The translations under genes and the position numbers were made by a program. The notes under the pieces were generated by a model. That model saw only the letters and a list, made by a program, of their open reading frames with translations. It was not told where the DNA came from and made no database searches. Shown piece after piece: positions 5,216 to 62,601 of a DNA stretch of 64,000 nucleotides (its first letter is position 1; each line of letters begins with the position of its first letter). This DNA is from Bryobacteraceae bacterium CoA2 C42 (lineage in GTDB: Bacteria; Acidobacteriota; Terriglobia; Bryobacterales; Bryobacteraceae), in contig JAINDL010000006.1 of assembly GCA_019931245.1 (NCBI GenBank), positions 1 to 64,000 of the forward strand. The letters run 5' to 3'.

Positions 5216-7020
5216 TTCGTCAGTATCGCACCGCCGCCAAGGCGCGTCACATCGACGTAGTAGGCGCCCCGCGAACTCCCGTCGGCGGCCTCGAGCCACG
5301 TCTGTAGCTCCACCGGGCCGGCCGGCAGTTGCACCGTAAACACCACAGCCGGCTGCCCGGGATCGATCGCCATCTCCTGCTCAAGACTACCCAGCCTGAT
5401 CCGCGCCTTCTGGAGGCCGGCAATCGCCTTGCCCGGCGTCTGGTCCCGGTTGCCCCTGTCCGGGGTATAGGCGGCCCCCAACGGCAGATTCACCTCCGCC
5501 GGCCAGCGGCGCAGCGCGAAGCGGTAGCGCCCGGCCCGCGCCTCTAACGCCCAAAACCCGTTCGCGGCCGGACCCGCCAGAATCGACCGCTGGTTCCAGG
5601 CCGCCAGCGCCCCCGCCCCGTGCCAGTCGTGAGCGGTCAACCGCACCGGGTTCTCCCGCGCGTCGCCGATGATGATCCTTGCGTACTCCCCGGCCCGGGC
5701 GCTCACCATCTGCCACCACTTCTCATAGTCGGCCCGCAGACGCGCGACCACGGCCGGCTCGCCCGCCGCCACGTCGGTCCTCTGCCCGGGATCGGCCTGC
5801 ATATCGTAGAGCTCCAACCGCCGCGGCTCCCCCGCGCCGCCCGGCCCCGAACTTACCAGCCGCCAGCGCTCGGTCATCACCGCCGCCTGCCGCCACGGCA
5901 ACAGCTCCTCCTCGCGCTGCGAATCGACCACCAAGCTCCGCTCCGGCCACGCCTCGCCCCGCAGTAGCGGCGCGAGCGACCGCCCGTGCAGCGGCAGCGC
6001 GCCGGGCGCCCGCGCCGCGCCCGTCCATTCGAGCAGCGTCGGCAGCACGTCAATGTGCGCGGTCAACTGCGGCACATCCCGGCCCTGCGCCAAGCCGCCG
6101 GCCGGCCAGTGCACGAAGAACGGCACGCGATGGCCTCCCTCGTACGCCGAGCCCTTGGCCCCGCGCATGCCGGCGTTGAAGACCTGCGCCCCGGAGGCGG
6201 TGCCGTTATCGGTGGTAAAGACGAAGATCGTGTTGGCCGCCAGGCCCGTCGCCTCGAGATAGCGGCGGAGGCGGCCGATGTTTTCGTCAATGTTCTCGAT
6301 CATCCCGTAGAAGCCGGGCTCTTTCAAGCCTTTGACATTCTGATAGCGCGCCTCGTTAGCCGCGGGCGCCCACATGGGCCCGTGCGGGGCGTTGGTGGGC
6401 AGGTAACAGAAGAAGGGCCGCCGGGCGCGGACGGAGTTTTCGATGAACCGCTGCGCCTGCGCAAAGAAGACGTCGGTGCAAAAACCGCTGAACTTTTCAA
6501 GTTTGCCGTTGTGGCGGTAGGTGTCGTCGAAGTAGTCATTGCCGAAGTGATCCGGCGTCTGCCAGATGCCGCCGCCGCCGTGGATGAGCACCTCGTCGAA
6601 GCCCTTGTCCTGCGGGCGGCTGGGATAGTTGTCGCCGAGGTGCCACTTGCCGAAGATGCCGGTGCGGTAGCCGGCCGCGCGAAGGGCTTCGGCCACGGTC
6701 CGCTCGTTGTGGTGCAGGATGCTCCGGCCCTGGATCGTGTGCCAGGGGCCCACCAGGTTCGAGTAGCGCCCCGTGAGAAGCGCCGAGCGGGTGGGGGCGC
6801 AGGTGGGGCTGACGTGGTAGTTGGTCAGGCGGACCGACTGCGCGTGGAGGGCGTCGAGGTGGGGCGTCCGCAGGACCGGATTGCCGTGGCAGGCGAGGTC
6901 GCCGTAGCCCTGGTCATCGGTCATCACCAGCACCACGTTCGGCCGGGCGGCTGCCGGAGGCAGCAGCGCGGAAGAGGCGGCGCCCAAAAACTGCCGGCGC
7001 GAAAACATCATCCTGACCAT
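5212..7020 (-). CDS. secreted arylsulfatase (type I, Cys-type), first copy
   Basis: A 602-residue sulfatase of the alkaline phosphatase superfamily. It hydrolyses sulfate esters using a formylglycine made from the Cys of the signature CAPTRSALLTGR (Cys about residue 74). Metal-site residues appear in MTDDQGYGD near the start and in TTDNG; GIFGKWHLG is the second family signature. The N-terminus carries SRRQFLGAASS, a Tat-like signal. A C-terminal extension of about 100 residues after the sulfatase core is not recognised. The ATG at 7020 is preceded by a G-rich Shine-Dalgarno-like run, and ATGs at 7011 and 7008 are alternatives. It begins just after the TAA of the second sulfatase and overlaps the protease start by 4 nt, so the three genes form one operon. 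Confidence 0.9.
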   Translation of the reverse strand: MVRMMFSRRQFLGAASSALLPPAAARPNVVLVMTDDQGYGDLACHGNPVLRTPHLDALHAQSVRLTNYHVSPTCAPTRSALLTGRYSNLVGPWHTIQGRSILHHNERTVAEALRAAGYRTGIFGKWHLGDNYPSRPQDKGFDEVLIHGGGGIWQTPDHFGNDYFDDTYRHNGKLEKFSGFCTDVFFAQAQRFIENSVRARRPFFCYLPTNAPHGPMWAPAANEARYQNVKGLKEPGFYGMIENIDENIGRLRRYLEATGLAANTIFVFTTDNGTASGAQVFNAGMRGAKGSAYEGGHRVPFFVHWPAGGLAQGRDVPQLTAHIDVLPTLLEWTGAARAPGALPLHGRSLAPLLRGEAWPERSLVVDSQREEELLPWRQAAVMTERWRLVSSGPGGAGEPRRLELYDMQADPGQRTDVAAGEPAVVARLRADYEKWWQMVSARAGEYARIIIGDARENPVRLTAHDWHGAGALAAWNQRSILAGPAANGFWALEARAGRYRFALRRWPAEVNLPLGAAYTPDRGNRDQTPGKAIAGLQKARIRLGSLEQEMAIDPGQPAVVFTVQLPAGPVELQTWLEAADGSSRGAYYVDVTRLGGGAILTK

Positions 7021-7021
7021 C

Positions 7022-8347
7022 TTATTCCCCCCCCGGCAAAGGCAGCACTTCGCCGCGGACCTCGCCCGCGAAGGCGCGCAAACGGGCGGCGAGACGCATG
7101 GCGACTTCGGGTTCGGCGGCCGCCACATTGTACTGCTCGGCCGGGTCCCGATCGAGGTGGTAAAGCTCCGGCGCCGCGCCCTTGGCCTGCCGGTACTTCC
7201 AGGGCCCCTGCCGAATCCCTTCGAGCGTCCGGCCGACGGCGTAAAAGAACTCCTGCCGCGGTGATGGCTGGCCGTCGCGCAGATGCGGCAGCAGGTTGTA
7301 TCCATCGTAGGGACGGTCGCCGGGCAACGCCACGCCGGCGGCGGCGAGCAGCGTCGGAAGAATGTCGAGCGTCGAGGCCATCTCCATCGAGACCTGCCCC
7401 GGACGGATCACCCCGGGCCAGTGAAAGATGCCCGGCACGCGGAAGCCGCCTTCGTAGCTCGTGCCTTTGGCGCCCCGCAGTAACCCTTTCGAGCCCGTGT
7501 GCCACGCCTCCACGCCGCCGGCCAGCATGCGCGGCGGCAGGTCGTGCCACGGCCCGTTGTCGCTCGCGAAGATAATGAGGGTGTTCCGGTCGAGCTTCAG
7601 TTCCCGCAGCGTCCGGGTGATCTCCCCAACCGACCAGTCGAGCGTCTCGATCACGTCGCCATAATGGCCGGCCCGGGAGCGGCCGCGCCTGTCGGCCGGG
7701 ACGCTCACCGGCAGGTGGGGCATGGCGTAGGGCAGATAGAGGAAAAATGGCTTCGTTTCGCAATTTCGAATGAAGCGTACCGCTTCGTCGGTGTAGCGGG
7801 GCGTCAGGTTCGCCTGGTCGGTTACCGGTTCGGCTGCGTCCTCGTTGCGGTAGAGGTGCAGGGGGCGTTCGGTTTTCACCCACGGCGGGATCATGTCGTT
7901 TGAATAGGGCAGGCCGAACCAGCGGTCAAAGCCGCGCCGGGTGGGCAGGTGGGCGGCGGGCTGGAAACCGAGATGCCACTTGCCGATGGCCATGGTCTGA
8001 TAGCCGCGGGCCTTGAGGAGTTGCGGCAGCAGGATTTCGGAGAGCGGCAGGCCGCCGACGGTATCGGGGCCGGTGTTGCCAGGCTGGCCGGCGCGGATAG
8101 GATGGCGGCCCGTCAGCAGGCCGGCGCGGGAGGGGCTGCAGACGGAGGCCGCGGCATAAAAGGACGTGAAGCGCATCCCTTCGGCGGCGAGGCGGTCGAG
8201 GTGCGGGGTGCGGAGCGTGGGGTGGCCGTAGCAAGCGAGGTCACCGTAGCCCATGTCGTCGGCGAACAGGACGATGAAGTTTGGCAAGCGCGAGGGGAGC
8301 TGGGCAAGGGCGGCGGCCAGAAACTCGCGCCGAGTGGTTGAGGGCAT
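7022..8347 (-). CDS. secreted arylsulfatase (type I, Cys-type), second copy
   Basis: A 441-residue sulfatase with the formylglycine signature CSPSRAGLLTGRH (Cys about residue 70), the N-terminal metal site FADDMGYGD, MAIGKWHLG, and ASDNG near the middle. TTRREFLAAALA at the start is a Tat-type signal. I chose the ATG at 8347 over the one at 8356 because a TAGAAT box lies exactly 7 nt before it and the signal then starts at MPSTTRREF. It is the first gene of the operon with the other sulfatase and the metalloprotease. Two unlike sulfatases in tandem suggest stepwise desulfation of one polysaccharide or glycoprotein, which is inferred. Confidence 0.9.
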   Translation of the reverse strand: MPSTTRREFLAAALAQLPSRLPNFIVLFADDMGYGDLACYGHPTLRTPHLDRLAAEGMRFTSFYAAASVCSPSRAGLLTGRHPIRAGQPGNTGPDTVGGLPLSEILLPQLLKARGYQTMAIGKWHLGFQPAAHLPTRRGFDRWFGLPYSNDMIPPWVKTERPLHLYRNEDAAEPVTDQANLTPRYTDEAVRFIRNCETKPFFLYLPYAMPHLPVSVPADRRGRSRAGHYGDVIETLDWSVGEITRTLRELKLDRNTLIIFASDNGPWHDLPPRMLAGGVEAWHTGSKGLLRGAKGTSYEGGFRVPGIFHWPGVIRPGQVSMEMASTLDILPTLLAAAGVALPGDRPYDGYNLLPHLRDGQPSPRQEFFYAVGRTLEGIRQGPWKYRQAKGAAPELYHLDRDPAEQYNVAAAEPEVAMRLAARLRAFAGEVRGEVLPLPGGE

Positions 8348-8354
8348 AGCCAGC

Positions 8355-8360
8355 ATTCTA
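8355..8360 (-). promoter_or_regulatory. TAGAAT -10 box for the sulfatase operon
   Basis: Read on the minus strand, TAGAAT ends 7 nt before the ATG at 8347, and no Shine-Dalgarno is present. This implies a leaderless message and supports 8347 as the start. Confidence 0.45.
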
Positions 8361-44234: not shown

Positions 44235-45722
44235 TTAACAACCTTGCGACCGCGTCCGAGCCACCGCCGCCTGCCAACCCGCCCACAGCGCCTCCCGCTC
44301 CGCCGCGGCCATCGAGGGCGTAAACACCCGTTCCGCCTGCCAGAACGACTCGACCTCCTCCACCGAACTCCAGTAACCCACCGCCAACCCGGCCAGGTAA
44401 GCCGCCCCCAGCGCCGTCGTCTCGCTATCCCGCGGACGAACCACCGGACAGCCCAGCATATCGGCCTGAAACTGCATCAGAAAGTTATTCTGCGCCGCCC
44501 CGCCGTCGACGCGCAGCTCCTCGAGCGGTGCGCCCGAATCGGCCTCCATCGCCTGCACCAGTTCACGCGTCTGGTACGCCATGCTTTCGAGCGTGGCCCG
44601 CACCAACTCCGCCCGCCCCGTCGATAGCGTCATCCCCGTCAGGCTCGCCCGCGCCTCCGCGTCCCAGTGCGGCGCCCCCAGGCCCACAAACGCCGGCACC
44701 AGATATACCCCGCCCGTATGCGCCACCGACTGCGCAATCTGCTCCGTCTCCGGCGCCGACTCAATCAGCCCCACCTTATCCCGCAGCCACTGCACCGCCG
44801 CGCCCGCAATGAAGATCGAACCCTCCACCGCGAACTGCGCCCCGCCTCCCAGGTTGGCCGCCCGCGTCCCCAGCAGACGATGGCGCGAAACCGGCCTCTC
44901 CCCACCCGTGTGCAGCAGCGCAAAACACCCCGTGCCGTAAGTATTCTTGGACAGACCCGGACGAAAACAAGCCTGGCCCGCCAGCGCCGCCTGCTGGTCG
45001 CCCGCAATCCCCGCAATCGGAATCTCGACGCCGAGCACCGTCGCCGCCATCTGCCCGCAAATACCGCTCGAAGGCACAATCCGCGGCAGCATCGCCCGCG
45101 GAATGCCGAACAGCGCCAACAGCTCGTCGTCCCAGTCGCCCGTGGCCAGGTCCATCAGCATCGTGCGCGAAGCGTTCGTCGGATCGGTCACGTGCGTCGA
45201 CCCGGCCGTGAGGTTCCAGATCAACCACGTGTCGATGTTGCCAAACAGCAGGTCGCCGGCCGCGGCCCGCTCCCGCGCGCCGGGGGTATGGTCGAGAATC
45301 CATTCCACCTTCGAGCCGGAGAAGTAAGCGTCGATTACCAAGCCTGTCTTCGCCGTCACCCGGGCAGCCTCGGCCGACGCCGCCAGCGTGCGGCACCGCT
45401 CCGCCGTGCGGCGGCACTGCCAGACAATGGCTGGCGCAATCGGCGCGCCCGTGCGGCGGTCCCAAACCACGGTCGTCTCCCGCTGGTTGGTGATGCCTAC
45501 GGCGGCAATCTCCTGCGGTTGCGCGTCGATCTCAGCGAGGGTCCGCCGCATCGCGTCGAGTTGGGCCGTCCAGATCTGCGCCGCGTCCTGCTCCACCCAA
45601 CCGGGCTGGGGATAGCGGCACGGAATGGGCACCGAGGCCATGGCCAGCCGATGGCCTTCCCGGTTATAGAGCGCCGCGCGGGCGGACGTTGTTCCTTCGT
45701 CGAGGGAGAGAATATAACGCAC
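44235..45722 (-). CDS. glpK: glycerol kinase
   Basis: A 495-residue FGGY-family kinase that phosphorylates glycerol with ATP to sn-glycerol 3-phosphate in the cytoplasm. It shows the N-terminal phosphate loop LSLDEGTTSARAALY, the substrate-binding region NQRETTVVWDRRTG and WQCRRT, GNIDTWLIWNL, and in the second half YGTGCFALLHTG and DGGAAQNNFLMQFQAD. Length and order match GlpK throughout. The start is a GTG with TATAAT 6 nt upstream and no ribosome site, a leaderless-type start. No glpF or glpD lies near. It is divergent from the small gene at 45745 with 22 nt between start codons. Confidence 0.95.
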   Translation of the reverse strand: MRYILSLDEGTTSARAALYNREGHRLAMASVPIPCRYPQPGWVEQDAAQIWTAQLDAMRRTLAEIDAQPQEIAAVGITNQRETTVVWDRRTGAPIAPAIVWQCRRTAERCRTLAASAEAARVTAKTGLVIDAYFSGSKVEWILDHTPGARERAAAGDLLFGNIDTWLIWNLTAGSTHVTDPTNASRTMLMDLATGDWDDELLALFGIPRAMLPRIVPSSGICGQMAATVLGVEIPIAGIAGDQQAALAGQACFRPGLSKNTYGTGCFALLHTGGERPVSRHRLLGTRAANLGGGAQFAVEGSIFIAGAAVQWLRDKVGLIESAPETEQIAQSVAHTGGVYLVPAFVGLGAPHWDAEARASLTGMTLSTGRAELVRATLESMAYQTRELVQAMEADSGAPLEELRVDGGAAQNNFLMQFQADMLGCPVVRPRDSETTALGAAYLAGLAVGYWSSVEEVESFWQAERVFTPSMAAAEREALWAGWQAAVARTRSQGC

Positions 45723-45728
45723 TCGCCG

Positions 45729-45736
45729 ATTATAAT
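45729..45736. promoter_or_regulatory. palindromic ATTATAAT, bidirectional -10 element
   Basis: ATTATAAT reads the same on both strands and so contains a consensus TATAAT in each direction. On the minus strand the box ends 6 nt before the GTG of glpK, and on the plus strand 8 nt before the ATG at 45745. One element can thus set both transcript starts at or near the start codons. Confidence 0.6.
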
Positions 45737-45744
45737 GGAGTCAT

Positions 45745-46179
45745 ATGTTCTTCAAGCGCGCAGCCAAAGAGATCCCGACGTTCGCCAAGAAGTTGAGCGC
45801 CGCCCAGGCGCAAGGATTCGCGAGCGAAAGCGTCACGGGCGGATACCTGATCTCCCGCAAAGGCTGCGCGGCCCTCGTGAAGGAGACCGCTGAGGGCCAG
45901 GCCGAAATCGTCGAACACGGCATTCTCAGCGGCAAGCAGGTGGCCCGCCTGATGCACGGCGGCTACCAGATGTTTTTCCTCACCCCGGACGGACACAAGC
46001 ATCCGGCCCTCGCCGAGCATCTCAAAGCAGTCCACGCCTTCCGCGAAGACCTCATCGAGGCGCTCGGCGAGACCAGCCTCTACAACCAGTCGCTCGGCAG
46101 CACCTGCGCGGGGCACATCTACGACCGCGTGAAGGACCGCGACCACGGCGTGGCGAAGCGGCCCTGGGAAGGGGCCTGA
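45745..46179 (+). CDS. conserved-looking hypothetical protein divergent from glpK
   Basis: A 144-residue soluble protein without signal peptide or membrane segment. Segments such as FAKKLSAAQAQGFASESV, ISRKGCAALVKETAEGQAE and YQMFFLTPDGHKHPALAEH suggest a mixed alpha/beta fold, and the codon use is like that of its neighbours. I do not recognise the family. It has a consensus TATAAT box 8 nt before the ATG with GGAG between, so it may be well expressed. It shares this palindromic element with glpK. It converges with the TonB receptor gene through a hairpin. Confidence 0.6.
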   Translation: MFFKRAAKEIPTFAKKLSAAQAQGFASESVTGGYLISRKGCAALVKETAEGQAEIVEHGILSGKQVARLMHGGYQMFFLTPDGHKHPALAEHLKAVHAFREDLIEALGETSLYNQSLGSTCAGHIYDRVKDRDHGVAKRPWEGA

Positions 46180-52748: not shown

Positions 52749-53785
52749 TGCCCGCCACCTGGACCATGCCCGCCGAATGGGCGCCCCACGAAGGAACCTG
52801 GCTCGCCTGGCCCCACGAAAAGAGCGATTGGCCCGGCAAGTTCGGACCCATCCCCCACTTCTACGGCAAGCTCATCGCCAAGCTGACCCGCTATGAAACG
52901 GTCCACCTACTCTGCGCCAACGAACGCGCCGCCCAGGCCGCCGTTAAAGCCGCCCGCCAGGAGCACGCCAACCTCGCCGCCCTCGACCTCCACCTCGTCC
53001 CCACCGACCGCAGCTGGCTCCGCGACACCGCGCCCATCTTCGTCAAATCCACCACCGGCAAGCTCAAAGTCACCGACTGGCACTTCAACGGCTGGGCCAA
53101 GTACGACAACTGGCAGAACGACGACGCCCTGCCCGAATACATTGCCGCGAAACTCGGCCTCCCCCGCGTCCAGCCCCTCGCCCGCCAGCGCCGCGTCGTG
53201 CTCGAAGGCGGCTCCATCGACGTCAACGGCGCCGGCACGCTCCTCACCACCGAAGAGTGCCTCCTCAGCCCCGTTCAGGCCCGCAATCCCCACCTCACCA
53301 AAGCGCAGATCGAAGCCGTCCTCGCCAAGCATCTCGGCGTCACCAAAGTCCTCTGGCTCGGCAATGGCATCGCCGGCGACGACACCCACGGCCACGTCGA
53401 CGACCTCGCCCGCTTCACCGACCCCCAAACCATCGTCACCGTCGTCGAAGCCGACCCCGCCGACCCCAACTACGAACCCTTGCAGGACAACCTCCGGCGC
53501 CTCCGCGAAATGACCGACCAGGACGGCCGCCCCCTCCGCATCGTCACCCTCCCCATGCCCGCCCCCGTCCGGTTCGCCGACCAGCGTCTCCCGGCCAGCT
53601 ACGCCAACTTTTACATCGCCAACCAGCAGGTCCTCGTGCCGACCTTCAACGATCCCAACGACCGCCACGCCCTCAACACCCTCGCCGGCCTCTTCCCGGA
53701 CCGCGCCGTCGTCGGCATCGACTGCAGCGACCTCGTCCTCGGCCTCGGCACCCTGCACTGCATGACGCAGCAGCAGCCCGCCTAA
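52748..53785 (+). CDS. aguA: agmatine deiminase
   Basis: A 345-residue guanidino-group-modifying enzyme that hydrolyses agmatine to N-carbamoylputrescine, the step before AguB. Hallmarks are MPAEWAPHEGTWLAWPH, RDTAPIFV, VLEGGSIDVNG, NGIAGDDTHGHVDDLARF, and the catalytic Cys in GLGTLHCMTQQQP (Cys about 338). The usual GGGNIHC is changed to GLGTLHC, a conservative variant. The start overlaps the aguB stop by one base. No arginine decarboxylase gene is seen in the window. It overlaps the convergent secreted-protein gene by 4 nt. Confidence 0.95.
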   Translation: MPATWTMPAEWAPHEGTWLAWPHEKSDWPGKFGPIPHFYGKLIAKLTRYETVHLLCANERAAQAAVKAARQEHANLAALDLHLVPTDRSWLRDTAPIFVKSTTGKLKVTDWHFNGWAKYDNWQNDDALPEYIAAKLGLPRVQPLARQRRVVLEGGSIDVNGAGTLLTTEECLLSPVQARNPHLTKAQIEAVLAKHLGVTKVLWLGNGIAGDDTHGHVDDLARFTDPQTIVTVVEADPADPNYEPLQDNLRRLREMTDQDGRPLRIVTLPMPAPVRFADQRLPASYANFYIANQQVLVPTFNDPNDRHALNTLAGLFPDRAVVGIDCSDLVLGLGTLHCMTQQQPA

Positions 53786-55623
53786 TTCGCCGTCTCCCAG
53801 GAAAGCGTGAACCGGTAGGTGTCGGCGCCGCGCGCCGGGTCCCGGATCTCAACCCGTCCCGTCGCCGGATCCACCAGCTTCACCTCACCCCGCCCCCGCA
53901 GCTTTTCCACCCGGTACTGCGGGCTGTAGTAACGCGAAACCGCCCCCGTACACTGCTGGCTCACCTCCCGCTCCGGCGCCCCCACCAGCACCTCGTAAAC
54001 CGGCCGTCCACCGATCAGCGAGACCCCCACGGTGCCATCCACCACCACCTCCACCGTACAACTCCCCTTCGCCATCGCCGGCCCGGCCGCGGGCGCCGCC
54101 TGCCCCGCCTGTCCCACCTGTCCCACCTGTCCCACCACCTTTCGCTCGACCGCCACAAACGCCGGCTCCGGCCCCCCCACATCGAGATACGGATTGAACA
54201 CGTACTCGGTCGAAATCGGACGATCGGCGGGAAACCGCAGATTCTGCGAAAAACCGTAGGCCGGATCCGCCCCCCACTGCCCCGTCGCCAGGATCTTCCG
54301 CCGCTGCGTCGCCACGTCGTGCCAGCCCCAGAAAGGCTTCGCCTTATCCCGCCCGTGCTTCACCCCGTAAAAGCTGCCCGCCACCGCCGCCGCCCGCATC
54401 CGCGGACGCCCCCCGGCCGGCGTGTAGCTATAAAACGCGCTCAGCAGCCGCTCCTCTCCGTTCGACTCCCGGGTCGCGCGCGCCCACCAATGGTGATAAA
54501 TCGGCAGTAACTCGTAACCAACCTCGCGGTCCACCCCGTGCCGCGGCCGCTCCGCCGCGCCCTTATAGACGTAAGTAATGCCGGTGTTCTGCTTCCAATC
54601 GAAGTTATTCCCGTCAAAAAACGACTTCTGATCGCCGGCCCCCAGCGCCCCGTGCCCTCCCGCTTCGAGAAACACCACCGGATGCGACCCGTCATGCAGC
54701 AGCAGCGGGCCGTCCACGTTGTGAGCCCCGCCCCGTATGCCCGCGTCGCCCGCCGTGTACGAGTAAATATTGTTGTGCGCCAGCGTCTCCATCGCCTCAA
54801 TCCGGCCCAGCGCCGAACCGTCCTTCCGCACCGCGACAATCACTCCCTCGTTATCGTTCTCATGGCACGTGCCCGCCACGCAGTTATCCGAGTAATCCCG
54901 CGCGTGGAAGAAGTTGTAAATCAAAAACCAGTGCGACCGCGACTCGATCGCGGCGTAATAAACATAGGCCTGCGTCGATCCCGCCCCCAGGTTATCCCAG
55001 TTATTCCCGCCGTCCCAGTCGTTGTCGTAATCGACGCGGCAGATAGCGTCGGCCCGCCAGTCAAACCACGTCTCCTGCGCCACGTAAGGCGCGTAGTGCT
55101 CCGCGAGCTGGCGATAGGGATCGGCCATCGGACTCTCCGGCCCGAAGGTCCACTTTTCCGCGGTCTCCGGCGGCGCCGGCGCCGCCGCATCGACGACGAT
55201 CTCCGCCGCCGTCCGCAACTCCCCCAGCCGAAACTCCACCGTATACTTCCCCGGAGTCTCCGGCGCATGGTACACAATCGCGTCCTTCACCGTAAACTGC
55301 CCGGAAAGCTGCCGGAACAGCGACCCGGCCAAGCCCGTCGCCGGATCGTAGAACGGTTCCGTGTCCGTCCCCTGAAACCGGAATGGCTTGGAAACCCAGC
55401 CGCCCCGCGGCGACACCACCTCGACGCTCCACCCCGCCTGCCGCAGGCGGGCCTCCTTCGTCTTCTCGCCGTCCGGCACCTGGCCATACACCTTCACCTG
55501 CAAAATCGCTTCCCTGTGCGGCCGGATGCGCAGCGCTGCCGGCGTGGCCGACACCGCCAGACGCGACGGATTTTGCCCCCACGCCGCCATCACACAGAAC
55601 AAAACGAAAATACAGGAACGCAT
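53782..55623 (-). CDS. large secreted protein of unknown function
   Basis: A 613-residue secreted protein (signal CIFVLFCVMAAWGQNP). An N-terminal beta domain of about 150 residues (HREAILQVKVYGQVPDGEK) is followed by a region rich in Trp, Tyr and Asp (DYDNDWDGGNNWDNLGAG, HWFLIYNFFHARDYSD, TCHENDNEG). That resembles the VPS62-like proteins in which a HEND motif recurs, a loose match. Near residue 500 it has a short repeat (GQVGQVGQAGQ) encoded by a 9-bp tandem repeat. The ATG at 55623 starts the signal and has a TATAAT box 6 nt upstream. It follows the metallophosphoesterase gene by 7 nt. Confidence 0.6.
   Translation of the reverse strand: MRSCIFVLFCVMAAWGQNPSRLAVSATPAALRIRPHREAILQVKVYGQVPDGEKTKEARLRQAGWSVEVVSPRGGWVSKPFRFQGTDTEPFYDPATGLAGSLFRQLSGQFTVKDAIVYHAPETPGKYTVEFRLGELRTAAEIVVDAAAPAPPETAEKWTFGPESPMADPYRQLAEHYAPYVAQETWFDWRADAICRVDYDNDWDGGNNWDNLGAGSTQAYVYYAAIESRSHWFLIYNFFHARDYSDNCVAGTCHENDNEGVIVAVRKDGSALGRIEAMETLAHNNIYSYTAGDAGIRGGAHNVDGPLLLHDGSHPVVFLEAGGHGALGAGDQKSFFDGNNFDWKQNTGITYVYKGAAERPRHGVDREVGYELLPIYHHWWARATRESNGEERLLSAFYSYTPAGGRPRMRAAAVAGSFYGVKHGRDKAKPFWGWHDVATQRRKILATGQWGADPAYGFSQNLRFPADRPISTEYVFNPYLDVGGPEPAFVAVERKVVGQVGQVGQAGQAAPAAGPAMAKGSCTVEVVVDGTVGVSLIGGRPVYEVLVGAPEREVSQQCTGAVSRYYSPQYRVEKLRGRGEVKLVDPATGRVEIRDPARGADTYRFTLSWETAN
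54099..54134 (+). repeat. 9-bp tandem repeat, four units
   Basis: CCTGCCCCG followed by three exact copies of CCTGTCCCA. On the coding (minus) strand it encodes repeated Val-Gly-Gln, a probable flexible linker. The length is a multiple of three, so copy-number change would keep the frame. Confidence 0.8.
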
Positions 55624-55629
55624 AGCCCA

Positions 55630-55635
55630 ATTATA
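55630..55635 (-). promoter_or_regulatory. TATAAT -10 box overlapping the upstream stop codon
   Basis: The last codons of the metallophosphoesterase gene are CTA TAA, followed by T. The resulting TATAAT ends 6 nt before the ATG at 55623, so the downstream gene can have its own leaderless start inside the operon. Confidence 0.5.
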
Positions 55636-56515
55636 GGCGTGGCCCCGCCGCCAGCGCCGGGTCGCCCGGATCAAACTGCGGCCCCCCGGCGTTCCACTCC
55701 TCCAATCGAAACGCCCGCCCCAAACCATACGGCGGCGGCAGTTCGCGCACCGTCACCCGCACCTGCCCCCCCGCCACCCGAATCAGGAAATAGTGGTAAA
55801 ACCAACCCTGCCGAAACCCCTCGCCCCGGCTCAACCCACGGTCGATGCTGCCCCCGCTCGAACCGATCTCGCTGTAGTGAATCCCGCCCGTCTCCAGGTG
55901 GACAAACTGGTGGCCGTGGCCCGAAAACACGTGCGTCACGCCGTGCTTCTTCGCCAGATGATGCAACGCAAACTCCCCGCTCCCCACCGCCACCTGCGGA
56001 ATCCAGAACGGTTTGTGCAGAAACACCATCTTCGGATGGCAGCCCGCATGCGCCTGCAGGCTCTGCTCGAGAAACGCGAGCTGCGCCGGCGCCAACCCCT
56101 CGGTCCGGCTGTTGTCCAGAATCACGAACAGCGTATTCTGATGCACCCACGCATACTGCGGCGGGTGGCCGGCGTGCCGGGCAAACGCCGCCGCCGAAGC
56201 ATCGTTCCAGATGTCATGGTTCCCGGGCGTATGCCGGATCGGAAACGGCGCCGTACCCCACAGCGCCTCCATCTCCGCCCACTGCGCCGGCGCCTTGGCG
56301 TCATCGACGCCCTCGATCGCATCCCCAATCGTCACCGCAAACGCCGGGTCCGCCAGCAGCACCTCCCGGAACACCCGGGAGTAGATCTGCGGACGCGCCG
56401 AACCCGTCCGGTCGCCGATCAGCGCAAACGTAAAATCATTTGGTCCGGCGCCGGCGGCCGGCAGCGCGGCGGCGGACAGCAACGGGAACACACGGCGGCG
56501 GGAGAGCGTAAACAT
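55631..56515 (-). CDS. secreted calcineurin-like metallophosphoesterase
   Basis: A 294-residue phosphoesterase. The start MFTLSRRRVFPLLSAAALP looks like a Tat signal. The two-metal site is complete: ALIGDRTGSA, IGDAIEGVDD, TPGNHDIW, the His in FLHKPFW, and FSGHGHQFVH. Members hydrolyse phosphomonoesters or diesters; the substrate is unknown. No ribosome site or -10 box is clear before the ATG. It is divergent from the nfrB-like gene (39 nt between starts) and co-directional with the secreted protein downstream. Confidence 0.88.
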   Translation of the reverse strand: MFTLSRRRVFPLLSAAALPAAGAGPNDFTFALIGDRTGSARPQIYSRVFREVLLADPAFAVTIGDAIEGVDDAKAPAQWAEMEALWGTAPFPIRHTPGNHDIWNDASAAAFARHAGHPPQYAWVHQNTLFVILDNSRTEGLAPAQLAFLEQSLQAHAGCHPKMVFLHKPFWIPQVAVGSGEFALHHLAKKHGVTHVFSGHGHQFVHLETGGIHYSEIGSSGGSIDRGLSRGEGFRQGWFYHYFLIRVAGGQVRVTVRELPPPYGLGRAFRLEEWNAGGPQFDPGDPALAAGPRL

Positions 56516-56554: not shown

Positions 56555-58288
56555 GTGTTATCCGGCTTCTCAGCGGCGTTGGACACGATCGTGGCCACTA
56601 TCTTTCCCGGCGTCCTGGCATGGCTCCTGGTAAATGGTGTCGACGATCTGTTGCTGAACCTCTTCTGGCTCTGGCTTCCCGCCAAACCGGCGCCGTCCGC
56701 CGCCCAGGCGCAACCCGAAAAAAACCTCGCCATCTTCGTCCCCCTCTGGCAGGAGCATGACGTCGTCCGGCAGATGGTCACCCACAACGTCACCGCCATC
56801 CGCTACGCCGACTATCACCTCTTCCTCGGCGGCTACCCCAACGACAATGCCACCCTCGATGAGATCCGGGCGATGGAAGACCAGTTCCCTCATGTCCATC
56901 TTTCGCTCGTCCCCCACGACGGACCAACCTCCAAAGCCGACTGCCTCAACTGGGCCTTCCAAACCATGTTGCTCTATGAAGAGCAAAGCGGCACCCGCTT
57001 CGACGGCGTCGTCACCCACGATGCCGAAGACATGATCCATCCCGACTCCCTGCGCTGGATCAGCCACTATCTGTCGAACTACGACATGGTCCAGGTGCCC
57101 GTCCTCGCCCTGCCCACCCCGCTCACCGAACTCGTCCACGGCATCTACATCGATGAGTTCAGCGAGTTTCAAACGCGGGATCTCCAGGTCCGCGAGTCGC
57201 TCGGCGGCTTCCTCCCCGGCAGCGGCGTCGGCACGGGCTTCTCCCGCCGTGCCCTCGAAGCACTCGCGCAGTCGGCGGAAAACCGGATCTTCGAACCCGC
57301 CTGCCTCACCGAAGACTACGAAAACGGCTTCCGCCTCCGCCACCTCGGCTTCCGCCAAACCTTCCTGCCGATTCGCTTCGCCGCGGGCGCCCCCATGGCC
57401 ACCCGCGAATACTTCCCCCGTAGCTGGCGCGCCGCCGTCAAGCAGCGCACGCGCTGGGTTACTGGCATCGTCTGGCAGGGCGCCGAACGCCACGGCTGGC
57501 AGGGCGGCTGGCGCCAGTGGTGGTGGCACTGGCGAGACCGCAAAGGCCTCATCGGCAACCCCGTCGGCGTCCTGTGCAACCTCCTGTTCCTGTACGGACT
57601 CCTCTGGCCCGAACGCCTCCTGGCCCTGCCCGGGGCGCGGTGGCTTCCCGTAACTTTCGCCTTAGTCCTGCTCCATGCCTCCATTCGCGTCGGCATCGTC
57701 CAGCGCTTCTACGGCTGGCCCATGGCCCTCCTGTCCCCCCTGCGCATCCCGGTGGCCAACTGGATCAACGCCTCGGCCAGCCTCCGCGCCACCGTGCGCT
57801 ACGCCAAATCCCGCTGGCGCCGCGAGCCCCTCGCCTGGCTCAAAACCCAACACCAGTATCCCAACCGCTTCGCCCTCGAAGCCCACCGGCCCACCCTCCC
57901 CGAAATCCTCGTCAAATCCGGCTACCTCCCCGCCAGCGCCCTCGAAGGCAAACCCGCCGGCCGCCGTCTGCAGGACTGGCTCGTTGAAACCGGCCGCCTG
58001 AGCGAAGAGCACCTCTACGAAGCCCTCGCCCTCCAACTCTGCATGCCGGTCAGTTTGGTCAGCCCGGACACCGTCTCCCGCGCCATCGCCCGCTCCCTGC
58101 CGGCCCACGTCGTGCGGAAGCATCAGATCATCCCCGTGCGGGTCGAAGACGGCCAACTGGTCGTCGCCGGTCCCGAAGCCCCGCCCGAAACGCTACCCCT
58201 CGCCCTCCGGCCCTACACCCGCCTCGGCGTCAAGTTCGAACTGGTGCCCCGGTCCACCTTCGACCAGATTCTGCAAACCCACCTCTAG
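56555..58288 (+). CDS. NfrB-type glycosyltransferase with MshEN-like domain
   Basis: A 577-residue inner-membrane GT2 glycosyltransferase similar to NfrB, which in E. coli makes a surface glycan used as receptor by phage N4. After a membrane helix (TIVATIFPGVLAWLLVNG) come LAIFVPLWQEHDVV, the nucleotide-sugar site HDAEDMIHP, GVGTGFSRRAL, TEDYENGFRL with the catalytic Asp, and KQRTRWVTG (QxxRW). About three more membrane helices follow. The C-terminus is a type II secretion E N-terminal-like domain (RLQDWLVETGRLSEEHLYEA), the c-di-GMP-binding type in MshE. The RLG of that motif is RLQ here. The start is a GTG. No nfrA-like gene is adjacent. Confidence 0.85.
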   Translation: MLSGFSAALDTIVATIFPGVLAWLLVNGVDDLLLNLFWLWLPAKPAPSAAQAQPEKNLAIFVPLWQEHDVVRQMVTHNVTAIRYADYHLFLGGYPNDNATLDEIRAMEDQFPHVHLSLVPHDGPTSKADCLNWAFQTMLLYEEQSGTRFDGVVTHDAEDMIHPDSLRWISHYLSNYDMVQVPVLALPTPLTELVHGIYIDEFSEFQTRDLQVRESLGGFLPGSGVGTGFSRRALEALAQSAENRIFEPACLTEDYENGFRLRHLGFRQTFLPIRFAAGAPMATREYFPRSWRAAVKQRTRWVTGIVWQGAERHGWQGGWRQWWWHWRDRKGLIGNPVGVLCNLLFLYGLLWPERLLALPGARWLPVTFALVLLHASIRVGIVQRFYGWPMALLSPLRIPVANWINASASLRATVRYAKSRWRREPLAWLKTQHQYPNRFALEAHRPTLPEILVKSGYLPASALEGKPAGRRLQDWLVETGRLSEEHLYEALALQLCMPVSLVSPDTVSRAIARSLPAHVVRKHQIIPVRVEDGQLVVAGPEAPPETLPLALRPYTRLGVKFELVPRSTFDQILQTHL

Positions 58289-59361
58289 CGCCGCGAGAGC
58301 CCCCAGACGGTGGTCGACCGCAGCGGAACCCCCTTCTTCACCACCGTCGAAGGAAAACTCGGCCGGTTCGGCGAATCCGGATAATGCTGCGTCTCAAAGC
58401 AAAATCCCGCTCGCCGCACATACTGCCGCTTACCCTTACCGGTCAGCTTGCCGTCGAGAAAGTTCCCCGTGTAGAACTGCACCCCGGGCTCGGTCGTCGC
58501 CACCGTCAACACCCGGCCCGACCGCGGACTATACGCCTCAATCACCTTCCGCAGCGTCCCCGCCCCGCCGTTCAGCGCCCAGTTGTGGTCGTAGCCGCCG
58601 CCAAACTGAATCTGCTGGTCCCGGGCGTCAATCCGGGCGCCGATCGCCGTCGCCTTCCGGAAGTCGAACGGCGTCCCCGCCACCCCGCGCAGTTCGCCCG
58701 TCGGGATCAGCCCGGCATCCACCGGCGTGAACCGGTCCGCATCGATCCGCACCACGTGGTCAAGAATCGTCGCCTCGCCCGACAAGTTGAAGTAGGCGTG
58801 GTTGGTCAGATTCGCCACCGTGTCCTCGCTCGCTGCGGCCAGATAGTCAATCCGCAGCTCATTCCCGGCCGTCAGCGTGTAAGTAACCGTCACATCCAAC
58901 TGCCCGGGATAACCCTCCTCGCCCGCGGCGCTGCGATAGGTGAACTCCACGGCGTCCGCCTTGGCCGTAGCTTTCCATACGCGCTTGTCAAATCCGCGCA
59001 GACCGCCGTGCAACGCGTTGGCGCCATTGTTCACGGCCAGCGAATAGCTCTTGCCGTTCAACGAAAACCGACCCTTGGCGATGCGGTTCCCGTAGCGGCC
59101 CACAATCGCTCCCATGTAGGGCTGCTCCTGCAAATAGCCGGCCAGCGAATCAAATCCCAGCAGAACATCAAAGCCATCCGGCCCTGCCAGCGACACGACC
59201 GTAGCTCCGTAGGTCATGATCCGCGCCGTCATCCCGGCGGCGTTTGAGAGCGTATAAATCTCCACCGCCTGCCCGTCGGGCGTACGGCCAAAAGCCTCTT
59301 TCTTGACGGCGGCCGGCAGGCCGAGCGCGACGGCGGTGATCAACAGTGCAGTGCGAAGCAT
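58285..59361 (-). CDS. galM: periplasmic aldose 1-epimerase
   Basis: A 358-residue mutarotase that interconverts alpha and beta anomers of aldoses. The catalytic His is in LTNHAYFNL and the catalytic Glu in TTEPGVQFYTGNF; NGANALHGGLRGFDKRVW and GYDHNWAL line the pocket. Unlike the cytoplasmic enzymes it has a signal peptide (TALLITAVALGLPAAV), so it acts in the periplasm on incoming sugars. It lies 7 nt after the DinB gene with its own TATAAT box overlapping that gene's stop codon. It overlaps the nfrB-like gene tail-to-tail by 4 nt (CTAG). Confidence 0.92.
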   Translation of the reverse strand: MLRTALLITAVALGLPAAVKKEAFGRTPDGQAVEIYTLSNAAGMTARIMTYGATVVSLAGPDGFDVLLGFDSLAGYLQEQPYMGAIVGRYGNRIAKGRFSLNGKSYSLAVNNGANALHGGLRGFDKRVWKATAKADAVEFTYRSAAGEEGYPGQLDVTVTYTLTAGNELRIDYLAAASEDTVANLTNHAYFNLSGEATILDHVVRIDADRFTPVDAGLIPTGELRGVAGTPFDFRKATAIGARIDARDQQIQFGGGYDHNWALNGGAGTLRKVIEAYSPRSGRVLTVATTEPGVQFYTGNFLDGKLTGKGKRQYVRRAGFCFETQHYPDSPNRPSFPSTVVKKGVPLRSTTVWGLSRR

Positions 59362-59367
59362 CCTGCA

Positions 59368-59373
59368 ATTATA
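59368..59373 (-). promoter_or_regulatory. TATAAT -10 box overlapping the DinB stop codon
   Basis: The DinB gene ends CTA TAA followed by T, forming TATAAT, which ends 6 nt before the galM ATG. The arrangement is the same as at 55630-55635. Confidence 0.5.
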
Positions 59374-59815
59374 GTTGGGCTAGATGGTTCCGGTCGTGCC
59401 CGGCGATAATCTCGACGAGTGTGCGGAAAGTTAAATCACCCAACTCCGGATGCACCACCGGCCTGTCAAAAGTCTCCGCCGGCAACTGCCGCAGGAAACC
59501 GAGGAGCCACGCCCGGACGCTCGTAAAAACGGCCAGCGCCGCCGCCGGGTCAGCGTTCGCATAACTGTTCGCCCAACGGTCCTGGTCGAAGGGCTGCACC
59601 ACGTAACTCTCCTCGGCCGCGGCCTGCCGCAGACGAAACGCAAACGCTACCTCGCAGTCGGCCAGGTGCGCCAGAATCTGTCCGTAAGTCCACTTACCCG
59701 ACGCCCAGGGCGTCGCGTACCGCGCCGGGTCAATGGCCGCCAGTCGAGCCGGAGTAGCGGCCAGCACAGCCAGCGGATCCAGGTCGCCAAGGTGCTGGCC
59801 GTAGGGATTACTCAT
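59369..59815 (-). CDS. DinB-like family protein
   Basis: A 148-residue four-helix-bundle protein of the DinB/YfiT type. Putative metal ligands are the His in ILAHLADCEVAFAFR and the pair in AGHDRNHLAQL at the C-terminus. FDQDRWANSYANADPAAAL is the usual loop between helices. Members include thiol transferases and many proteins of unknown role. The ATG overlaps the stop of the BIG2 gene (TAATG), so it belongs to the operon coming from the right edge. Confidence 0.85.
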   Translation of the reverse strand: MSNPYGQHLGDLDPLAVLAATPARLAAIDPARYATPWASGKWTYGQILAHLADCEVAFAFRLRQAAAEESYVVQPFDQDRWANSYANADPAAALAVFTSVRAWLLGFLRQLPAETFDRPVVHPELGDLTFRTLVEIIAGHDRNHLAQL

Positions 59816-62601
59816 TAAATTGGCTTAGCCTCGTACAATACCGTCTCATCGTCGTAGGTCATCGCCAGGAAGTAGACCGTACCGTCATCCCGGAAATCGA
59901 TGGCATTGATTCGAATCAGATAGTCCCCGTCGGGCGTCGGGCGGAAGAAGTTAATCACCTGCCGCACCTCCTCCCCGCGGCGAACGAGCAGGAAGTTGTT
60001 GCCGTTCGACTGCTGGAACAACACATCCCCGTTGCGATTGGCATCGGTAGCGACCACCGCGTTAGCCACCTGCCCGTTCGGCATCACCGACGAGTTGTTG
60101 ACGAGAATCTCCCAACCGCCCGACTTCCACTCCACCAGAATCGGCCCGCCCGAGGCCACGTTCAAGCCCGCAAACAGCCGCGTCCCGCCCACGCGGGTCA
60201 AATTCGCAATCCCCGTCACCAGGTGCGTCCCGATCCGCGTCACGTTCGGCTCCGCCATCCGCGTCCACGTCTGCCCGTTCCAGTGGTGCAACACCGGCAC
60301 ACCCACGTTCCGGAACCGCAGCGAGGCCAACACCTGCCCCGTATCGGCCAGGCTGAACGAATCGAAACTCGAAACAATCCGGCCATCAATCGTGGTCGCC
60401 GTGGCGGCCGTTCCGCTCAGCACCAGTAACTGCCGCGCTTGGCCGTTCGACCACAGAAAGATCCGATTATCCCCGGCGCTCGTCGACGAATGGAATAACA
60501 ACTCCCCATTGCCGTTCACATCAAACTGGCCAGGGTTATTCACCGTCAACGTATCAATGCGCAGCGGAAAACGCAGAATCAACTCCGGCGACCCGCCCCG
60601 GACCACCCGCCCGATGCCCACGCCCGAAATAAAATACAGATCCCCGTTCGGAGCCCGGCGCAGGTTGTAGGTCGCCCCGTGAAACCCGCCGAACCACATC
60701 GTTGTACCGAACAAACGCTCACCGGTCGCCAGCGGCACATCAAACGCCTGGCCATTCCATTCCGCCACCGAGCCGGTCGTGCCGCCCGATAACAGCTGCG
60801 GCGCCCCTTCGCGCGCACCGCCAATGAAAGTGATCAGATTCACCGGCGCCGTTACCTTCAGCATCCGGCCCGACCAGGCCAGAAAATCCGGTTCCCCGCC
60901 AATCCGCACCAACCCCATCGTCAGCGTCGTCGTCCGCACCATCAGGAAGATCTCGCCCCGGGCATTGATCGCCCCGCTCTCGATCGCCTCGACGGTGGTC
61001 GGGCCCAGCGCCGGCCGCGACAACAGAAACTGCGACTGCGGCTCGCTGCCCGGCTTCCACAGATAGACGCCATTCCCCCGGTTATTAAACGGATTAGCGA
61101 ACAGCAGCGCCCCGTGGTTCGGGTGATAGGAGAGAATGCCGGTCTGGCCCGTCAACTGTAAGGAACGGATCTGATTCGTCCGGTCGATGTGGACATAGTG
61201 CGTCGTGTTGTTGTTGAGCACCACCGCGCACAAAAGTTCTCCGTTCTCGTCAACCCAGAAGGCAGGCGCGTTGGCGGAGCCACCCGCGAAACTGCGAACC
61301 GTCGAACCGGCCACGGCGTCACCCACGCCCAGCACCCGCTGCCGCGTCCCATCCGGCAGGTGGCGGAACCAAACCCGGTTAGCCCCCTGCGATAGCGAAT
61401 AGTAGGCCGCACCGTCGGCCGCGATACCGAAATCGTTGTCCACCGTAAAGGCTGCGGTACCGAACGGATCAAAGCGGTCTGCTGTCGAAACCAGCAGTTC
61501 GTAGTCGCGCTGATCGTAAGACCGGAACAGCCCGGTGTAAGTCACCGGATTGTTTTCAAACCGAAACGTAGCCCGCACCAATACCGCCCCGCTCGAAGCC
61601 AGCGAGTTTCGCGTAATGAAGATGTTGCCGGTGGCCTCGGTCGCTCCCAGCGGGGTGTTGTTGGAAAACACAGGAAACACCCCATTCCGATCACCGCTCG
61701 AAAGCTGCCGCCCGTTGATGTTCGTATCCTCGTACGTCAACACCTGCCCCTTCCGCGTAATCGAATGCGAGAACAGTTCATTCGCAAAACTGGCCGAAGC
61801 AAACCGCGGAACACCCGTGGCGGTCACCACGCTCCACTCCCCCTCGCGCCAATTCAGCAGCGCCCCCGTCAACCCGCCCAGCGAGGCATTGACGAACACC
61901 TCGCCATCATCGGTCGCCCACACCATCGACGGCCGCGCCCGCAGTTCAAATTCGCCCGGCTGCTGATTCATGTTATGGAACAACCGCCGCACCCGGTACG
62001 TGCGCGGAGCATTCGTCGTCACCCGCGCCGTCACCTGCCACTGCCGCTGCAAGCCCGTCTGCACATCGCCATAGCTAAAGGTGGCCAGCACCATATTGGC
62101 CCCCTCGGCAATCGCCGACATCACCCCCTGCGGCGTAATCCGCGCCGTTTGCGTCGTCCCGTTGCGCAGGTTGGTCACCGTCCATCCCCACGCCACCCCC
62201 GGAATCACATTGCCATCGGCGTCCAGCGCCGTAGCCGAAAACTGCCGCGTGGCGCCGACATCCACGTCGGCCTCCTGCGGGTCAATGCGCACCTCGCTCG
62301 GAATCGTCTGCACCGCCGTCTCGGCCACCAGCGACCCCAGCCGCGCCACTACCCGCAACGTCCCCAAACCCCGCGCTGTCAGCAACCCACTGGAGTTGAT
62401 CGTCGCAAATATAGCGTTATTGACCGACCACGTAACCACCGCGTTCTGCAGTTGATTCCCCCCCGCATCCCGCGCCACGGCGCGAAACTGCAGCGTCCGG
62501 CCCACGAGCACCTGCGACGAGTCGCTCAACACTTGCAGAGTCGCCGGGGTCTGCGCCGCCGCCGAAAGAGCCATCAACAAAAAGAACGCCAGCCGCCGCA
62601 T
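59815..62601 (-). CDS. secreted BIG2-domain and propeller-like protein
   Basis: A 928-residue secreted protein (signal LAFFLLMALSAAAQTP). Two bacterial Ig-like (BIG2) domains at about 18-200 are marked by LVGRTLQFRAVARDAGGN, TWSVNNAIFATINSSGLLTA and VGATRQFSATALDADGNVI. From about 210 to the end, repeated units of the type VWATDDGEVFVNASLGG, INARGEIFLMVRTTT and DANRNGDVLFQQSNGNNFL suggest a beta-propeller in which each blade has an ARGE/NGEL-like turn. No catalytic motif is visible. It starts within the stop of the DUF1501 gene (ATGA) and so belongs to that operon. Confidence 0.75.
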   Translation of the reverse strand: MRRLAFFLLMALSAAAQTPATLQVLSDSSQVLVGRTLQFRAVARDAGGNQLQNAVVTWSVNNAIFATINSSGLLTARGLGTLRVVARLGSLVAETAVQTIPSEVRIDPQEADVDVGATRQFSATALDADGNVIPGVAWGWTVTNLRNGTTQTARITPQGVMSAIAEGANMVLATFSYGDVQTGLQRQWQVTARVTTNAPRTYRVRRLFHNMNQQPGEFELRARPSMVWATDDGEVFVNASLGGLTGALLNWREGEWSVVTATGVPRFASASFANELFSHSITRKGQVLTYEDTNINGRQLSSGDRNGVFPVFSNNTPLGATEATGNIFITRNSLASSGAVLVRATFRFENNPVTYTGLFRSYDQRDYELLVSTADRFDPFGTAAFTVDNDFGIAADGAAYYSLSQGANRVWFRHLPDGTRQRVLGVGDAVAGSTVRSFAGGSANAPAFWVDENGELLCAVVLNNNTTHYVHIDRTNQIRSLQLTGQTGILSYHPNHGALLFANPFNNRGNGVYLWKPGSEPQSQFLLSRPALGPTTVEAIESGAINARGEIFLMVRTTTLTMGLVRIGGEPDFLAWSGRMLKVTAPVNLITFIGGAREGAPQLLSGGTTGSVAEWNGQAFDVPLATGERLFGTTMWFGGFHGATYNLRRAPNGDLYFISGVGIGRVVRGGSPELILRFPLRIDTLTVNNPGQFDVNGNGELLFHSSTSAGDNRIFLWSNGQARQLLVLSGTAATATTIDGRIVSSFDSFSLADTGQVLASLRFRNVGVPVLHHWNGQTWTRMAEPNVTRIGTHLVTGIANLTRVGGTRLFAGLNVASGGPILVEWKSGGWEILVNNSSVMPNGQVANAVVATDANRNGDVLFQQSNGNNFLLVRRGEEVRQVINFFRPTPDGDYLIRINAIDFRDDGTVYFLAMTYDDETVLYEAKPI

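Follow-up and report, generated by a model that had tools for sequence, protein, structure and literature searches.

The window analysed here is the whole stretch of 64,000 nucleotides (nt) from Bryobacteraceae bacterium CoA2 C42 (contig JAINDL010000006.1, positions 1 to 64,000). Two tandem gene pairs on its minus strand are joined in the same way. The upstream gene ends in CTA TAA, a T follows, and the resulting TATAAT lies 6 nt before the ATG of the next gene. Both pairs had been claimed in a first-pass annotation of this DNA, and both are present.

The stop codon and the box at the two junctions

The first junction reads CTATAAT TGGGCT ATG on the minus strand, with CTA TAA at 55636-55631, the stop codon TAA at 55633-55631 and the ATG at 55623-55621. 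The upstream gene (55631-56515) encodes a calcineurin-like phosphoesterase according to Pfam, and its last codon CTA is followed by the stop TAA, which forms letters 3-5 of the -10-like box TATAAT at 55630-55635. The downstream gene (53782-55623) encodes a secreted-type protein of 613 amino acids with a signal-peptide-like N-terminus by eye, for which a Pfam search gave no match. Its predicted leaderless start is at 55623; our gene caller picked a later start, 55590.

The second junction reads CTATAAT TGCAGG ATG, with CTA TAA at 59374-59369, the stop TAA at 59371-59369 and the ATG at 59361-59359. Here the box (59368-59373, minus strand) takes its letters 3-5 from the stop of a gene for a DinB_2 superfamily protein (59369-59815, Pfam), which we take to be distinct from the DNA polymerase called DinB. 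The downstream gene (58285-59361) encodes a galM-like aldose 1-epimerase (Pfam), and the best named matches of the epimerase were on contigs labelled Bryobacterales (58% identity) and Verrucomicrobiota (59% identity).

At both junctions TATAAT begins exactly at -12 from the downstream ATG, with 6 nt between box and ATG. With TATAAT, six letters and then a start codon, the arrangement is the one expected when a -10 box places position +1 on the start codon and the mRNA is leaderless. The spacer at 55624-55629 (TGGGCT) contains no GGAG, GAGG or AGGA, and the spacer at 59362-59367 (TGCAGG) has no Shine-Dalgarno-like letters either, so a stop codon overlapping a Shine-Dalgarno sequence was not found at these two junctions. 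The first-pass annotation had regarded both CTA and TAA as unexpected in such GC-rich DNA. This holds for CTA, which accounts for 1.9% of leucine codons, and does not hold for TAA, which is not rare (301 of 1029 stops).

Boxes at -12 and predicted leaderless starts across the genomes

Genes were called with our own small hexamer-based caller on 1.365 Mb of the source genome (G000, the window and further stretches) and on 400 kb each of a genome of the same genus (G004) and of a genome of another genus of the same family (G008). The counts exclude duplicates of source-genome sequence (L001, L002, L063, L093). Starts with less than 60 nt of upstream sequence were also left out, and 1007 of the 1030 G000 genes were kept.

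In G000, 68 of 1007 called starts have a TANNNT beginning at -12; the count is 19 of 319 in G004 and 14 of 303 in G008, against a background per position (-40 to -21) of about 9, 3 and 3, respectively. The full TATAAT occurs at -12 before 8 of the 1007 G000 starts and before at most 2 at every other position. The position of the box relative to the ATG is fixed, and Shine-Dalgarno-like letters are scarce in genes that carry it (5 of 87 box genes, versus 330 of 1056 genes without a box). Leaderless promoters with a box at -12 are predicted to be general in this genome.

Sorted by the gap to the neighbouring gene, boxes at -12 in G000 were found in 8 of 139 tandem pairs with gaps of 0-12 nt, 9 of 115 with gaps of 13-40 nt, 4 of 95 with gaps of 41-100 nt and 11 of 112 with gaps above 100 nt, as well as in 33 of 324 divergent and 1 of 182 overlapping pairs. 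Overall, they were no commoner in close tandem pairs than in distant or divergent ones.

One pair of -10-like boxes in the window overlaps. At 45729-45736, ATTATAAT gives TATAAT on both strands between two divergent genes, a FGGY carbohydrate kinase gene starting with GTG at 45722 (minus strand) and a gene for 144 amino acids with no Pfam match at 45745 (plus strand). The two boxes begin 12 and 14 nt before the two starts.

Spacing of TATAAT and stop codons within it

A plain genome count of CTATAATN{5,8}ATG gave 6 places versus 4 for the reversed-pattern control and was rejected as evidence, being uninformative. The pattern TATAATN{2,24}ATG was found at 63 places in the whole G000 genome, versus 20 for its reversed-pattern control, and the 6-nt spacer was the commonest of the 23 spacings (11 of 63, hand-counted). 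G004 had 67 such places, 11 of them with a 6-nt spacer (hand-counted), against a control of 43, a smaller excess than in G000. There is also a second, smaller peak at a spacing of 10 nt (8 of 63 in G000, 9 of 67 in G004). Some of these strings are near-identical, and the peak perhaps reflects leaders of only a few letters or a single kind of conserved gene.

Among all 11 TATAAT-N6-ATG sites of the G000 genome, five have a box whose TAA ends a called upstream gene: the two window junctions, C31:42852, C103:18537 and C173:10746. At the C103 site the downstream frame reaches the contig end after 23 codons. Two of the 11 sites are not gene starts, one opening a frame of two amino acids and the other lying inside a called gene. 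At other spacings the stop codon was inside TATAAT in 1 of 12 sites examined. For orientation, about 0.1 stop-in-TATAAT junction would be expected genome-wide versus the five seen, an estimate resting on about 36 tandem pairs with a 7-nt gap genome-wide (extrapolated from 8 pairs without TATAAT in 1.365 Mb) and on a reduced set without most of the stretches chosen for TATAAT, in which 1 of 618 other gene ends spells TATAAT.

Conservation in a genome of the same genus

The DNA of G004 is about 74% identical around both window junctions. Its DinB-epimerase junction reads CTATAAT CTCTAA ATG, with a spacer that matches in 1 of 6 letters, and its phosphoesterase junction reads CTATAAT CGCAAT ATG, matching in 2 of 6. 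Thus the CTA, the box, its distance to the ATG and the stop within it are the same at both junctions, although the spacers together match in only 3 of 12 letters. The two G004 spacers, like those of the window, lack a Shine-Dalgarno sequence. Across 65 ortholog pairs, CTA was kept in 9 of 47 leucine pairs and TAA in 11 of 23 stops, counts in which the junction codons are probably included. At such rates, two complete conservations through drift are unlikely.

Among 36 orthologs with the same start in G000 and G004, TANNNT at -17 to -11 was common to both genomes in 13 of 13 cases, versus 3 of 9 at -40 to -18; at -10 to -6 there was one in G000 and two in G004, none of them common. Three of the five G000 stop codons within TATAAT have a TATAAT near the start in G004, one of them with a 7-nt spacer (the gene after the C173 site, MFS-like by eye, 95% protein identity).

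A third stop-in-box junction in the window indicates with which gene the box goes. A sulfatase gene (7022-8356) ends in a TAA (7024-7022) that opens the box TAAGAT at -13 (7019-7024, minus strand), and a 7-nt spacer separates the box from the ATG of a second sulfatase gene at 7011. In G004, the second sulfatase ATG is preceded at an unchanged distance by TAAGAT, whose TAA ends no called gene. The first sulfatase (86% identical) stops about 530 nt before the box there, and a called open reading frame of 178 amino acids covers most of this interval. As the box persists in G004 without a stop role, it belongs with the downstream gene. It appears from this pair that an upstream frame can adopt the box of the downstream gene as its stop. 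The G004 segment of about 530 nt (C16, before position 78389) is missing in the window (7022-7040), where the first sulfatase ends on the box.

Three registers of the stop codon within the box

With the box fixed at -12, a stop codon fits TANNNT in three ways. It can form letters 1-3 (TA[A/G]NNT, here TAR-NNT, with a gap of 9 nt between the genes) or letters 3-5 (TA-stop-T, gap 7), or its T can be letter 6 (last-T, gap 4). Gaps of 5, 6, 8, 10 and 11 nt are impossible for a stop with an unbroken TANNNT at -12. The 139 G000 tandem pairs with gaps of 0-12 nt contained eight boxes at -12, at gaps 4 (3 of 19), 7 (3 of 11) and 9 (2 of 9), and the other permitted gaps (0-3 and 12) had none in 56 pairs. 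Close tandem pairs had a box at -12 in 2 of 36 cases in G004 (gaps 4 and 7) and in 0 of 29 in G008.

For the test of registers, boxes at -12 to -14 were set against other gene ends, where the stop codon supplies the same letters for free. Reduced sets omitted the window contig and the stretches chosen for TATAAT matches. The reduced sets for registers and for the letter control also exclude C180:25001, which holds a TATAAT match, while the G004 stretch C16, chosen for relatives of the window junctions, stays in the pooled register and letter-control sets. In the G000 stretches not chosen for TATAAT, the last-T register was found in 5 of 29 pairs versus 3 of 321 controls (p 1e-4) and TAR-NNT in 4 of 12 versus 32 of 345 (p 0.02). 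G004 alone gave 1 of 9 for last-T, 1 of 6 for TAR-NNT and 1 of 8 for TA-stop-T, none significant. When the three genomes were pooled without the chosen G000 stretches, last-T (6 of 42 versus 6 of 682, p 2e-5) was the sole clearly significant register.

The enrichment is specific to the letters, clearly so for the last-T register. In the letter control (G000 without chosen stretches plus G004), TA at the required place occurred in 6 of 38 pairs versus 5 of 501 controls (p 3e-5), while AT, AA, TT, CA and TC at that place and TA at neighbouring codon steps were not significantly enriched. The stop codon was inside the box for 13 of the 14 boxes at -12 to -14 in close tandem pairs of the reduced G000 set and G004, and for 19 of 25 in all stretches, in part because the stop supplies free letters. 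Judged from these sequences, sharing occurs in three registers, of which only last-T is well supported statistically outside the chosen stretches.

Boxes in other lineages

Control loci were analysed with a similar calling script. No box at -12 was found before 155 Hymenobacter or 103 proteobacterial starts. Other Bacteroidota had 14 of 398 (mean further upstream 12.8) and Actinobacteria 2 of 76 (mean 0.1). With 0-13 pairs per register, the control loci of other phyla are too few to say much on registers; the largest set, other Bacteroidota, gave 7 of 13 versus 75 of 236 for TAR-NNT (p 0.09) and 2 of 10 versus 15 of 226 for last-T (p 0.16). The plasmids of Deinococcus deserti (300 kb) show the peak at -12 (12 of 218 starts) and had no box in close tandem pairs, which were too few for a register test. 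Boxes in close pairs were found twice in loci of the family and once in Acidobacteria-labelled loci, one per set with the stop inside, again too few. As a single anecdote, TAAGAT precedes the ATG of the epimerase gene in another genus (L083), and its TAA ends a frame that is open over all 468 upstream codons available.

A proposed leaderless promoter that contains the upstream stop codon

We propose that the -10 box is placed by its distance to the downstream ATG, about 12 nt. In close gene pairs it would overlap the end of the upstream gene and absorb its stop codon in one of the three registers, TAR-NNT at gaps of about 9-11 nt, TA-stop-T at about 7-9 nt and last-T at about 4-6 nt. RNA polymerase would start at the downstream ATG from a box containing the upstream stop, and the second gene would get its own leaderless mRNA from a promoter inside the tandem pair. 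The downstream gene would then need neither a ribosome-binding site nor the transcript of the upstream gene. A stop codon shared with a leaderless -10 box is very probably the explanation of the junctions, and the internal leaderless promoter suggested by the first-pass annotation is thereby supported on sequence and comparative grounds. The start by RNA polymerase, the leaderless mRNA, its use by ribosomes and any benefit are what we infer from the DNA. A promoter box that doubles as a stop codon would be as fair a wording, because the downstream ATG appears to determine, by its distance, where the box lies and because the sulfatase box is kept without a stop role.

If boxes are shared in this way, TATAAT gene ends should be commoner at promoter distance from the next gene. 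The comparison was favourable, with 3 of 11 gene ends spelling TATAAT at spacing 7 versus 3 of 1018 elsewhere in all G000 stretches examined, though it is biased toward our explanation in that several stretches were chosen for holding TATAAT. Two of the 3 in 1018 are in fact spacing-7 junctions whose downstream start was missed by the caller, and the third has spacing 13. The outcome is favourable free of that bias because of the five stop codons in 11 whole-genome sites, the conservation in G004 and the last-T register.

Several results weigh against our explanation. TATAAT gene ends in a reduced set, which still included C180:25001, numbered 0 of 3 at spacing 7 versus 1 of 618 elsewhere. The TA-stop-T register, to which both window junctions belong, was not significant in the G000 stretches not chosen for TATAAT (1 of 12 versus 4 of 337, p 0.16), and in the pool of three genomes neither TAR-NNT (5 of 28 versus 89 of 717, p 0.27) nor TA-stop-T (2 of 29 versus 9 of 706, p 0.066) was significant, the G004 part of the latter being the DinB-epimerase junction itself. 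G008 gave 0 of 4 for last-T, 0 of 10 for TAR-NNT and 0 of 9 for TA-stop-T. Two of the five stop codons within TATAAT have no TATAAT in G004, where weaker TANNNT was not looked for: that before the gene after the C31 site (1270 amino acids, TonB-dependent-receptor-like by eye, 90% identity) and that at the junction following the C103 gene (TPR-like by eye, 64% identity over residues 47-403 of the part searched). A -35 element was not found either, since at least four matches to a TTGACA-like hexamer 16-18 nt before the box occurred in 8 of 87 box genes versus 6 and 7 at two control spacings. Finally, start codons were assigned by our own caller, and it failed to recover one of the two window junctions.

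Alternatively, the box may have come first and the stop second. An A+T-rich leaderless -10 box in GC-rich DNA would be the next in-frame stop for an upstream frame after a rearrangement or the loss of its own stop, with no selection for sharing as such. This account, which agrees with ours on the promoter, is quite plausible although we can hold it only tentatively. The sulfatase pair speaks for it, as the G004 box lies about 530 nt past the first stop with a TAA that ends no called gene, and the G000 sulfatase runs into the box. Both window junctions, on the other hand, have stop and box in common in both genomes, with the rare CTA kept, and therefore the shared state is old or maintained there.

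Translational coupling would explain the junctions without a promoter. Short A+T-rich gaps would favour termination-reinitiation, and TATAAT would look like a box only because the stop is TAA and structure at the junction is weak. Re-initiation is described as possible where stop and start codons are close (PMC4633059) and at overlapping genes (PMC6728339), and a 4-nt overlap was the commonest gap in our set (101 of 644 tandem pairs). The enrichment, however, is for TA and not for AT, AA or TT, the box is tied to the distance to the ATG while the stop takes three registers, and the sulfatase box persists in G004 although no called gene ends at its TAA. Coupling alone is thus improbable, and coupling would be compatible with a promoter at the same junction.

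Chance together with selective noticing, i.e. two matches in one window with free letters from the stop codon, is disfavoured and very improbable. In its favour, the plain count hardly differs from its control, TANNNT has a higher base rate at some gaps thanks to the letters of the stop, and two registers, TAR-NNT and TA-stop-T, give a weak signal or none of significance outside the chosen stretches. Against it, the last-T register clearly exceeds controls with the same free letters, the stop is inside the box at five of 11 whole-genome sites, and both junctions are conserved despite diverged spacers.

Comparison with known systems

Leaderless promoters are already known, and the sharing with a stop codon is what appears to be new here. 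Zheng et al. 2011 (PMC3160421) describe leaderless genes marked by a TANNNT -10 box that lies about 12 bp upstream of the start, and all three Acidobacteria genomes scored in that study had such genes, with an average of 13.3%. The box and the distance are the same as here, where it is the second gene of a tandem pair that carries the box. For transcription starts in Acidobacteria, this paper alone was found in the open PubMed Central literature.

In Deinococcus radiodurans, a -10 motif was reported to be sufficient as a leaderless promoter, with weak dependence on other sequence (PMC12340547). The ORF-adjacent (open reading frame-adjacent) -10 motif of Deinococcus-Thermus is similar to the boxes described here, which also have no -35 signal, and the missing -35 signal fits the sufficiency of the -10 motif reported for D. 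radiodurans. That study concerns another phylum, and the terms "stop codon" and "upstream gene" do not occur in its main text.

An upstream stop codon that overlaps the Shine-Dalgarno sequence of the next gene has been reported to affect stop choice and gap length, with gaps of 5-8 bp (PMC2784483). As in our junctions, an upstream stop is recruited there into the initiation signal of the next co-directional gene. The signal in that case is a ribosome-binding site, whereas here it is a promoter-like box in genes in which Shine-Dalgarno letters are rare. No description of stop codons inside -10 boxes was found in the open PubMed Central literature, which is not proof that none exists.

If the explanation is true, one short sequence ends the translation of one gene and starts the transcription of the next, which would readily explain how a leaderless gene can stand second in a tight array. 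It would predict permitted gene gaps, stop codons and last codons, and operon predictors that use short gaps would join independently transcribed genes in such genomes. A more general form is possible, though we offer it with reserve: in GC-rich bacteria rich in leaderless genes, the stop and the next -10 box may be one co-selected element with three registers. Such an element would fix gaps (4, 7 and 9 nt allowed; 5, 6, 8, 10 and 11 excluded at -12), bias last codons and stop choice and give distal tandem genes their own leaderless transcripts, and "operons" would in part consist of leaderless units that stand in a row and are independent of each other.

Neighbouring features of the window

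Just upstream of the DinB-epimerase junction, at 59813-59817 on the minus strand, a gene for 928 amino acids and the DinB-superfamily gene meet in TAATG, where position 59815 belongs both to the stop TAA and to the start ATG, a one-letter overlap. On the plus strand, 56555-58288 encodes a family-2 glycosyltransferase with a C-terminal MshEN domain (Pfam). MshEN domains can bind cyclic di-GMP (c-di-GMP).
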